From contig JADZBD010000025.1 in the NCBI GenBank assembly GCA_020852255.1, positions 1-64,000 on the forward strand: DNA of 64,000 nucleotides, written 5' to 3'. This DNA comes from Bacteroidia bacterium (GTDB lineage: Bacteria; Bacteroidota; Bacteroidia; JADZBD01). Shown here in pieces: positions 1,277 to 32,282 of the stretch (the first letter of the stretch is position 1; the number at the start of each line of letters is the position of its first letter). The translations under genes were made by a program, and so were the position numbers. The notes under the pieces were generated by a model, which was given only the letters and a program-made list of their open reading frames with translations, did no database searches and was not told the DNA's origin.

Positions 1277-1302
1277 AAAAAAACCCTTCTTTACGGGAAG
1301 GG
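1277..1302 (-). terminator. Candidate attenuator hairpin with T7 tract in the asd leader
   Basis: Read on the minus strand, CCCTTC (1302-1297) pairs with GAAGGG (1289-1284) around a 7-nt loop. Seven Ts follow directly (1283-1277). This is the form of an intrinsic terminator, but it lies only 24 nt before the asd start codon and no other minus-strand gene precedes it. It therefore probably acts as a conditional terminator (attenuator) together with the leader peptide at 1331-1381. The structure was judged by eye, without energy calculation. Confidence 0.7.
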
Positions 1303-1330
1303 CCTCTATGACATATACCATGTACAGGTC

Positions 1331-1381
1331 CTACCCCGGAGGAAAGGCTTTCTTACACTTTTTATACATCATCGTACTCAT
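1331..1381 (-). CDS. Putative asd leader peptide (Lys/Met/Thr rich)
   Basis: A 16-codon frame reads MSTMMYKKCKKAFPPG and stops with TAG. It holds four lysine codons within five positions, three methionines and one threonine, which are exactly the end products of the aspartate pathway that asd feeds. It lies between a promoter-like sequence (1390-1420) and a hairpin with a T tract (1277-1302). By analogy with classical his, thr or trp attenuation, a ribosome starved for lysine would stall on the AAA AAG...AAG AAA codons. The terminal CGGGG (1338-1334) could then pair with TCCCG (1298-1294) and weaken the terminator. The peptide is inferred; its composition could be chance. Confidence 0.55.
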   Translation of the reverse strand: MSTMMYKKCKKAFPPG

Positions 1382-1389
1382 TTCGACGG

Positions 1390-1420
1390 CAAATATCTAT
1401 TATTTTCACCTCACGGCAAA
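1390..1420 (-). promoter_or_regulatory. Predicted asd promoter
   Basis: On the minus strand TTTG (1420-1417) is followed after 19 nt by GATATTTG (1397-1390), one mismatch from the Bacteroidota consensus TTTG-N19-TAnnTTTG. The expected start of transcription, about 3-7 nt downstream, lies immediately before the leader-peptide ATG at 1381. Confidence 0.55.
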
Positions 1421-1443: not shown

Positions 1444-2082
1444 ATGAGAAAGATCTTCTGCCCCATCCTGCTCCTCACACTTCTTTATTGTTCCTGCGAA
1501 ACCCCGGTTCAACAGAACGAGGTCTCCGGAGACCGTAAACCGGAAGTATTTGAAAAAGACGGTAAGTACGGCTTCCGTGATTCGCTGGGAGTGATCATCC
1601 CTGCCCGGTACGACTTCGCCTACGACTTTGATACCAGCCTTGTTACGGCAGTAACCGATAGTTCCGGCTGGAGCATTATTGACCGGAAAGGGAACTACCT
1701 TCTCACTCCGGTGGTGTATGATAATGGTCCTGATTACTTCGAAGAAGGACTCGCCCGCTTCATTGACAATGGCAAAATGGGGTTTTTTAATACCCGCGGA
1801 CAGAAAGTGATTCCCGCCAACTGGGATTTCGCCACTCCCTTTAAAGCCGGACTTACCAGCGTATGCCTGGGCTGCTCCCAGGTTCCTATTGATGAGGAAC
1901 ATTGGAAAATGGAAGGCGGCAAATGGGGAATGATGGATAAAACCGGGAAAATGGTGATTCCGGCAGAATACCAGGCCTTGCTGCACTTCGACAACGACTC
2001 CATTACTATTCAGCAGGATGGCAAGTGGTACAAAATGCATATCCGGAAGCCGGAGCGCATTCCCATTAAGGCACCCTATTAA
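1444..2082 (+). CDS. WG-repeat lipoprotein
   Basis: The 212-residue protein begins with a lipoprotein signal peptide: a hydrophobic stretch ending LLYCSC, so acylation at one of the cysteines near residue 16-18 is expected. The mature part carries at least three WG-type repeats, recognisable as (K)YGFRDSLGVIIPARYD, KMGFFNTRGQKVIPANWD and KWGMMDKTGKMVIPAEY. WG repeats form beta-rich modules common in Bacteroidota envelope proteins. Their function is generally unknown, so no specific role is claimed. The gene is divergent from asd and convergent with the next gene. Confidence 0.8.
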   Translation: MRKIFCPILLLTLLYCSCETPVQQNEVSGDRKPEVFEKDGKYGFRDSLGVIIPARYDFAYDFDTSLVTAVTDSSGWSIIDRKGNYLLTPVVYDNGPDYFEEGLARFIDNGKMGFFNTRGQKVIPANWDFATPFKAGLTSVCLGCSQVPIDEEHWKMEGGKWGMMDKTGKMVIPAEYQALLHFDNDSITIQQDGKWYKMHIRKPERIPIKAPY

Positions 2083-30824: not shown

Positions 30825-32282
30825 TTACGGCACCGGCGGAGTGTTCCGGGGGAAAGGGTCCTTTATCAGCCATTCTCTCTCCGTCCGGAAATTGTCGGAT
30901 TTTCTTCCGCTGTCGGTTTCAAAGATATAGATGCTGTAATTCCCTGATTCATACGGAAGAAATTCTCTTGCGAAAAATATTCTCTTCAAGTGAATTTCGG
31001 GTCTTTGCATCAGCTCGCGCTTGTCCATCCATTTTCCCCAATGAGCGTCTACCAGCAGCAGGGAGCCGTTGGTCATTTTTCCGTAATGACCTTTGTGGTT
31101 GACCTGAACCCAGCCCTCTTCATCCCAAAAATCTCTGTTGAAATAATACCAGAACATAGGATCGGTACTATAGATCTTCCGATGTTGCTTATCTCCCTCG
31201 GGAAATGTGGAGGAAAATTCCTGCACCGCGCGCTGCACCGGATTCTCCCGCAGCGGCAAGTCCACCGCCCTCCATGTTAAAAATCCCTGGAGCAATAACA
31301 AGAACCATCCGGCAGGAATGAACATCCTCGATTTTCTGATCCATTGCAAACCTGCAAGGACCAGCAATGCAGCCAGCGGGGCCACCGTAGCCATTACACG
31401 CAGCAATCCGATTGCGCCGGCTTGTCCTTTGTAATTCACATAGGAATGTGCCGCAAGTACCATGAAAAATCCGGCGGCCGGAAGCCAGTCGTTCCACTGC
31501 TTCATCCTCCGGCCCCGCTGAATCATCCAAGCGGATCCGGCCACCAGCAGTATGCTGCCGGCTACTCCGAAGAGTCCATTATATGAAAGAAAATAATGAA
31601 ACGGGTCGCCGGTTCGTGTAAAATCATCCGCATGGTAAGGCTGCTGCTCTAATACCCAGAAAATATCATTGAAGACCAACGCGCCTGCCAGCGAAAAGAA
31701 GAGGGTGCCGGTAGCCAGCCAGGGTATTCTTTTCCACTCCTTCCTTAAGACAAAAAGTAGGGCGAAAAGAATAATAAATGCAAATCCCTCCTGCCGCGCA
31801 AAGGGTAAAAAAGAAACCACCACGGCTGCGGTGATATCCTTCCCTGAAAAAAGGGCATACACGGCCCAGGCCAGAAGAAATGCAAAAAGGGGCTCCGTCA
31901 TGGTACTGAAAGTGAGCGGCAGCCATACCGGGAACAGGAAAAGAACGGCTCCTGCAAACCAGGCTGAATATAATCCCAGTTTCCCTGCAGTCCGGATGAC
32001 CAGCCATGCAGTTGCCGCACTAACCAGAATGTTGAAAAATCCGTGAGCACCTGCGCCTCCCTGAGCAAACGGAGAGGAAAAAATGGTAAAAAGAGGTTTC
32101 CCCCACAGATCAAGAAAAAGTTCCGGGTGCTGCCAGGAATACTTCGCAATACCGTAATGCATGATGGCATCTGTTCCACCTTCCGAGGTTTCGGAAGTAA
32201 TCCATACTATCACAGACAGTATAGTGCCGGCGCAAACCGTCAGCAAATCAGTCAATACGACACCCCGCACGAGTGTCCGCAT
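30825..32282 (-). CDS. Polytopic membrane protein, GT-C-like
   Basis: The 485-residue protein has about ten membrane segments and a soluble C-terminal third. The first extracytoplasmic loop includes SEGGTDAIMHYGIAKYSWQH with an acidic residue where GT-C enzymes place their catalytic Asp, and a later segment reads FARQEGFAF. This arrangement suggests a mannosyltransferase-like or ArnT-like glycosyltransferase, but the match is weak. It starts 5 nt after the stop of the outer-membrane-protein gene, so it belongs to the same transcription unit. Confidence 0.6.
   Translation of the reverse strand: MRTLVRGVVLTDLLTVCAGTILSVIVWITSETSEGGTDAIMHYGIAKYSWQHPELFLDLWGKPLFTIFSSPFAQGGAGAHGFFNILVSAATAWLVIRTAGKLGLYSAWFAGAVLFLFPVWLPLTFSTMTEPLFAFLLAWAVYALFSGKDITAAVVVSFLPFARQEGFAFIILFALLFVLRKEWKRIPWLATGTLFFSLAGALVFNDIFWVLEQQPYHADDFTRTGDPFHYFLSYNGLFGVAGSILLVAGSAWMIQRGRRMKQWNDWLPAAGFFMVLAAHSYVNYKGQAGAIGLLRVMATVAPLAALLVLAGLQWIRKSRMFIPAGWFLLLLQGFLTWRAVDLPLRENPVQRAVQEFSSTFPEGDKQHRKIYSTDPMFWYYFNRDFWDEEGWVQVNHKGHYGKMTNGSLLLVDAHWGKWMDKRELMQRPEIHLKRIFFAREFLPYESGNYSIYIFETDSGRKSDNFRTEREWLIKDPFPRNTPPVP

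Follow-up and report, generated by a model that had tools for sequence, protein, structure and literature searches.

The gene asd in the window, a stretch of 64,000 nucleotides from a Bacteroidia bacterium, is probably controlled by a lysine-responsive, ribosome-mediated transcription attenuator, a reading given a probability of about 90%. The elements of the leader, their conservation, the codon specificity, the spacing and the pairing alternatives were computed. The main support is comparative and strong, while the pairing evidence from the window alone is modest. The features that mark an attenuator were found together: a frame with codons matched to the pathway, an intrinsic terminator, an antiterminator geometry exclusive of the terminator, and a change of codons on a constant scaffold.

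Layout of the asd leader

On the minus strand, read 5' to 3', a Bacteroidota-type promoter is followed by the short frame MSTMMYKKCKKAFPPG, an antiterminator segment, a hairpin with seven T, and asd (Table 1). A sequence-only reading had described a promoter, a 16-codon frame and a hairpin with seven T before asd, all of which are present at the positions given in the table. It had also counted four Lys, three Met and one Thr in the peptide, correctly if the start Met is included. The CGGGG by TCCCG pairing that it offered as an antiterminator is real and extends to CGGG..AGG with CCT.CCCG; in the window this pairing is weak and interrupted. The identity of asd is given by NCBIfam PRK14874 (asd_B, 450 bits) and TIGR01296 (435 bits) and by Pfam PF01118/PF02774, and the contig ends 262 bases beyond the gene.

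Table 1. Features of the asd leader in the window and related leaders elsewhere in the same genome
Feature	Position (strand)	Remarks
Promoter	1390..1420 (-)	TTTG 1420-1417, 19-base spacer, GATATTTG 1397-1390; one mismatch to TTTG / TAnnTTTG
Leader peptide frame MSTMMYKKCKKAFPPG	1331..1381 (-)	ATG at 1381, stop TAG 1333-1331
Control codons AAA AAG TGT AAG AAA	1363-1349 (-)	Within leader frame
Region 1, AUGAUGUAUA	1363..1372 (-)	Within leader frame; predicted partner is region 2 if no ribosome covers region 1
Region A (antiterminator 5' arm), CGGGGUAGG	1330..1338 (-)	Overlaps stop codon; starts 10 bases past last Lys codon
Region 2, UAUAUGUCAU	1308..1317 (-)	Predicted partner of region 1
Region 3, CCCUUCCCG	1294..1302 (-)	Predicted partner is region A (antiterminator) or region 4 (terminator)
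Region 4, GAAGGG, with T7	1289-1284, 1283-1277 (-)	3' half of intrinsic terminator
Terminator hairpin CCCTTC-CCGTAAA-GAAGGG	1302-1284 (-)	T7 at 1283-1277
asd, aspartate-semialdehyde dehydrogenase, 329 aa	263..1252 (-)	ATG at 1252; 24 bases past T tract
hisG leader MNNQFHNHHHASYPKG	L176, G000:C2, before hisG at 32149	His-rich
trpE leader MKMNKNNWWWLSTHS	L224:1342, G000:C18	Before trpE; carries WWW
Met/Cys leader MNYTIHTILNKGMMCCMMCCCPRGMEMSC with terminator	G000:C4 ~115924-116060, locus L229:7925-8065 (+)	Before sulfite reductase-siroheme-cysH-homoserine dehydrogenase operon

The gap between the T tract and asd is short and holds no -7-type motif, and consequently transcription of asd must come by readthrough. 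The neighbour at 1444-2082 (+) encodes a WG-repeat protein whose N terminus (MRKIFCPILLLTLLYCSC) resembles that of a lipoprotein, with the asd promoter no farther than ~55 bases from the start codon of this gene. Because this gene is divergent from asd, the terminator closes no upstream gene. When the 191-bp intergenic region was shuffled with its dinucleotides preserved, a comparable terminator arose in 3/3000 cases, and a terminator with an upstream frame of at least four Lys codons in 0/3000. The pairings of the window sequence alone stand out only moderately from shuffles, the antiterminator being matched by 78/1000 and the leader helix by 33/1000.

The promoter recurs in the leaders of other genomes. 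A -7 box agreeing with TAnnTTTG at no fewer than five of its six positions was found upstream of the leader ATG in 53 of 56 leaders, compared with a mean of 18 and a maximum of 29 in shuffles. The distance from this box to the ATG has a median of 8 bases (quartiles 7-9) across the asd, dapA and hisG leaders, and is 8 bases in the window. The geometry of Bacteroidota promoters implies a 5' untranslated part of a few bases here; given the position of the ATG, the window leader probably has such a short one, with a putative start site only just upstream. Initiation in Bacteroidota largely proceeds without a Shine-Dalgarno sequence. For Bacteroides thetaiotaomicron, 5' untranslated regions under 10 bases are rare, at ~3.7% (PMC7366714).

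Relatives and codon specificity

The leader set comprised 41 asd/dapA leaders, 40 of them distinct leaders before asd and one before dapA, together with 15 hisG leaders (56 in all). A covariance model was built from 26 leaders, in all of which the terminators align, and was used to search 395 Bacteroidia genomes. About 20 matches were obtained at E <= 1e-8, all of them before asd except one before dapA. Weaker matches (E ~1e-7 to 1e-5) were on inspection mostly ordinary terminators. A structure-only search blind to Lys gave 24 asd upstream regions, 20 of which carry at least three Lys codons in one frame.

The frame and the hairpin, expected from the sequence-only reading to persist in close relatives, are both present in the one other genome of the order examined (L032), where asd is preceded by the leader MILRQKIKKQLKNFR, a ACGGAAAG segment past the stop, and a terminator, CCTTTCCCGGAAACGGCAAAGG, with T residues after it. 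The layout also recurs beyond the order in many Bacteroidia, chiefly in Chitinophagaceae. In a set of 80 named genome loci, leaders such as MMTLKHTKRTKKPL or MKMIMKHTKKQTKKMFPRREGV precede asd in many members of that family, Niastella yeongjuensis and Limnovirga soli among them, and none was found at the loci of Mucilaginibacter, Pedobacter, Sphingobacterium, Dyadobacter, Hymenobacter and Flavobacterium; the element is absent from many asd-bearing Bacteroidia. The genome with the dapA leader (L121, with IKKNTKRSKK in its frame) also has an asd leader. In the window genome, as in most relatives, dapA lacks such a leader. In the asd leaders L036, L037, L047, L062, L068 and L010 the gap between terminator and asd is 119-206 bases, with repeat-like sequence in some, which suggests that the switch tolerates insertions past the terminator.

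Across the 41 asd/dapA leaders, Lys accounts for 177/562 in-frame codons (31%) against 50/548 (9%) and 80/537 (15%) in the other frames, an enrichment inflated by the choice of the first 26 leaders partly for Lys content. The structure-only search, the sister genome, the His side of the hisG leaders and the swap tests described below are unaffected by this choice. All 41 leaders have at least two Lys codons and 38 have at least four. A Lys-Lys pair occurs in 37/41 and is spelled AAG AAA, AAA AAA, AAG AAG or AAA AAG, so that the amino acid rather than the bases is conserved.

The natural exchange of these codons at hisG is the best control for the lysine reading. Lower in the list of model matches was the region before hisG in the window's sister genome (L163), with the leader MKQFTHIHHHHTFP, and hisG was consequently searched in 20 genomes and found in 17; the 15 distinct leaders with His runs were compared. 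They share the scaffold of the asd leaders, and their His codons are spaced from the antiterminator as the Lys codons are; the Lys and His peaks nearly coincide, three to six codons before it. His makes up 64/200 codons (32%) of the hisG leaders versus 34/556 (6%) in the asd/dapA leaders (p = 2.8e-18), and within the hisG leaders it falls to 4% and 5% in the other frames. Conversely, Lys before the antiterminator amounts to 32% of codons in the asd/dapA leaders versus 10% in the hisG leaders (p = 7.5e-11).

A combined aspartate-family sensor, raised in the sequence-only reading, would stall ribosomes on Lys, Thr or Met, and a shortage of any end product would turn asd on. One Thr and two internal Met in the window peptide speak for it, as do a KHTK motif in many Chitinophagaceae leaders and the presence of Thr in 30/41 asd/dapA leaders. 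However, the frequencies of Thr (p = 0.9) and Met (p = 0.18) are no different from those of hisG leaders, and the commonest control position before the antiterminator is occupied by Lys in 33/41 leaders, by Thr in 1 and by Met in 1. In addition, the Thr and Met codons of the window leader lie upstream of the Lys codons, farther from the antiterminator, and the KHTK stretch is also under the pairing constraint of region 1. A combined sensor is thus improbable. Because neither Thr nor Met is enriched over the hisG leaders, the asd leader is, on codon evidence, a lysine sensor and not a Lys/Met/Thr sensor.

Methionine sensing appears to be located elsewhere, at the sulfite reductase-hom operon of the window genome. 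The sequence immediately preceding hom yielded no leader; the start of the operon further upstream was therefore examined, and a separate Met/Cys-rich leader was found there, which looks like an undescribed Met/Cys attenuator. Relatives have Met/Cys-rich leaders with MMCCMMC or MCMCMCMCCC, and their attenuators often stand two in tandem (L230, L231, L232, L234). A trpE match was obtained in six genomes, the window genome included, and the trpE leader carries WWW in every one. Rfam 15, including Bacteroid-trp, matches neither the His leader nor the Trp leader of the window genome. Three ilvD loci of relatives (L226, L227, L228) have Ile/Val-rich leaders (IVVII, VVIII), in tandem in 2/3. No ilvD match came from the window genome or from four other carriers, in which branched-chain amino acid synthesis by the ilvD route may be lacking. 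The codons therefore follow the pathway on a shared scaffold, with His at hisG, Trp at trpE, Met/Cys at sulfite reductase-hom and Ile/Val at ilvD, the full spacing and pairing test having covered the asd/dapA and hisG leaders only.

Alternative pairings and the proposed switch

Region A is of the type GGGAAGG before asd and GGTAAGC before hisG, and is CGGGGUAGG in the window. In most asd and hisG leaders it starts ~9-16 bases past the last control codon, at or around the stop. It is coding in some leaders (..REGV) and lies past the stop in others, which suggests conservation of region A at the RNA level and of the Lys codons at the peptide level. With this placement, region A stays accessible while a ribosome waits on the control codons, and is covered by a ribosome at the stop codon.

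The pairing alternatives were evaluated by folding with a ribosome footprint of ~12 bases beyond the A site, the E. coli value. Equilibrium folding of the full-length RNA makes the terminator more stable in nearly every ribosome state and fails to separate these states; for this reason, RNA truncated before region 4 was used. Since the terminator wins in the finished RNA, the proposed switch would require the antiterminator to form before region 4 is made. In the RNA up to region 3, all 26 leaders, the window included, have an antiterminator probability of 1.0 if the ribosome sits on the last Lys codon and of 0 if it sits on the stop, the latter value being largely set by the position of region A. 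In free RNA, the helix between regions 1 and 2 competes with the antiterminator (mean probability 0.53); in the window, the predicted helix in the truncated RNA has 10 pairs, AUGAUGUAUA with UAUAUGUCAU.

RNAalifold on a MAFFT alignment recovered the terminator only. The leader helix was missed because it is out of register in the alignment, and swap tests were used instead. Over 56 leaders, both the 1:2 and the A:3 pairings are better within than between leaders (0/1000 permutations each), and within the hisG leaders alone the corresponding values are 4/1000 and 25/1000. Taken with the in-frame Lys, the conservation of antiterminator and terminator, the fixed spacing, and the His and Trp swaps at hisG and trpE, ribosome-mediated attenuation of asd, as the sequence-only reading had proposed it, is strongly supported.

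From these results we infer where transcription starts, that the leader is translated, that ribosomes stall and transcription terminates, and in which direction asd responds. RNA polymerase would begin a few bases ahead of the leader's ATG, with a ribosome loading on the RNA as it emerges. With ample charged tRNA-Lys, the ribosome would reach the stop codon and cover region A, region 3 would pair with region 4, and the resulting terminator would keep asd off. When lysine is scarce, the ribosome would stall on the Lys codons, covering region 1 and leaving region A free; pairing of A with 3 would then block the terminator, and asd would be transcribed. If the leader is untranslated, 1:2 pairing would tie up region A, giving the terminator by default.

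The same elements might instead form a gene for an sRNA or small protein with its own terminator, placed before asd by chance, asd having a separate promoter. Promoter, frame and terminator do make a complete transcript of ~105 bases, and in some relatives the gap from terminator to asd exceeds 100 bases. Nevertheless, the gap in the window is too short for a promoter, the element is tied to asd (once dapA) across genomes, its codons match the pathway (His at hisG), and an antiterminator has no purpose in a plain sRNA gene, all of which makes this explanation very unlikely. A lysine riboswitch (L-box), T-box or other aptamer acting through the same terminator would accord with the lysine riboswitches of other phyla (PMC1262725), but it is scarcely credible, as the conservation lies in codons, the ~105 bases already holding a coding frame leave an aptamer little room, and the window and 12 loci match nothing in Rfam 15 at the gathering score and nothing plausible at a loose threshold.

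Known systems and significance

The classical E. coli attenuators (trp, his, thr, ilv, leu, phe) resemble the asd leader in their frame of end-product codons, alternative antiterminator and terminator, default-off helix, and T tract before the first gene. The asd leader differs from them in sensing lysine, in its asd/dapA target, in its Bacteroidota promoter and different sequences, and in a start codon that nearly abuts the 5' end of the transcript. The asd leaders scanned have no relevant match in Rfam 15, at either the gathering score or a loose threshold, and do not match the L-box and T-box covariance models. Bacteroid-trp RNA (RF01692), listed as a candidate cis-regulatory RNA for Bacteroidetes (Weinberg et al. 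2010, PMC2864571), is by name the nearest Rfam entry in the phylum; the window leader falls below its gathering score, which was likewise unreached by the asd, trpE and hisG leaders scanned. The asd RNA motif RF01732 of Lactobacillales, unmatched in the window, shares only the name asd, being a different structured RNA of another phylum.

The transcriptome of Flavobacterium psychrophilum is reported to show strong signs of attenuation by leader peptides upstream of amino-acid operons, and to include structured 5' elements, conserved across Flavobacteriaceae, ahead of pheA and hisG (PMC9723704). The main text of that report does not name asd, and the asd leaders described here belong to other families of the phylum. 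In a survey of Actinobacteria, lysine genes were assigned to riboswitches, and His, Thr and Phe genes to attenuation (PMC1262725). No specific description of lysine or asd attenuation in Bacteroidota was found in the open-licence literature. Lopatovskaya et al. (cited in PMC4833913) reportedly surveyed attenuation in a set of genomes including Bacteroidetes. The lysine-coded asd/dapA leader thus appears to be new within a known class of attenuator, with the reservation that it may have been predicted computationally before.

There is perhaps an even chance that the phylum holds a large undescribed set of attenuators on one scaffold, with ribosomes loading at the nascent 5' end without a Shine-Dalgarno sequence; no study of such loading with this coupling in Bacteroidota was found. 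The shared scaffold, which could equally well hold or fail, would consist of a near-leaderless frame ~8 bases past the -7 box, an antiterminator ~11 bases past the control codons and a default-off helix. Within the set the control codons would be exchanged, a proposal as open to doubt as to belief: Lys codons would serve asd/dapA, His codons hisG, Trp codons trpE, Met/Cys codons sulfite reductase-hom and Ile/Val codons ilvD.

Textbook leader-peptide attenuation is described in the searched papers for other amino acids, the lysine genes being assigned to riboswitches. Leaders of the asd type are short annotation targets absent from Rfam, and a lysine attenuator on asd and dapA in several Bacteroidia families would be a testable rule for control of the aspartate pathway. 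The matching His, Trp and Met/Cys leaders in the same genomes suggest that the phylum may gauge amino-acid supply in general by where the ribosome stands on the nascent transcript.
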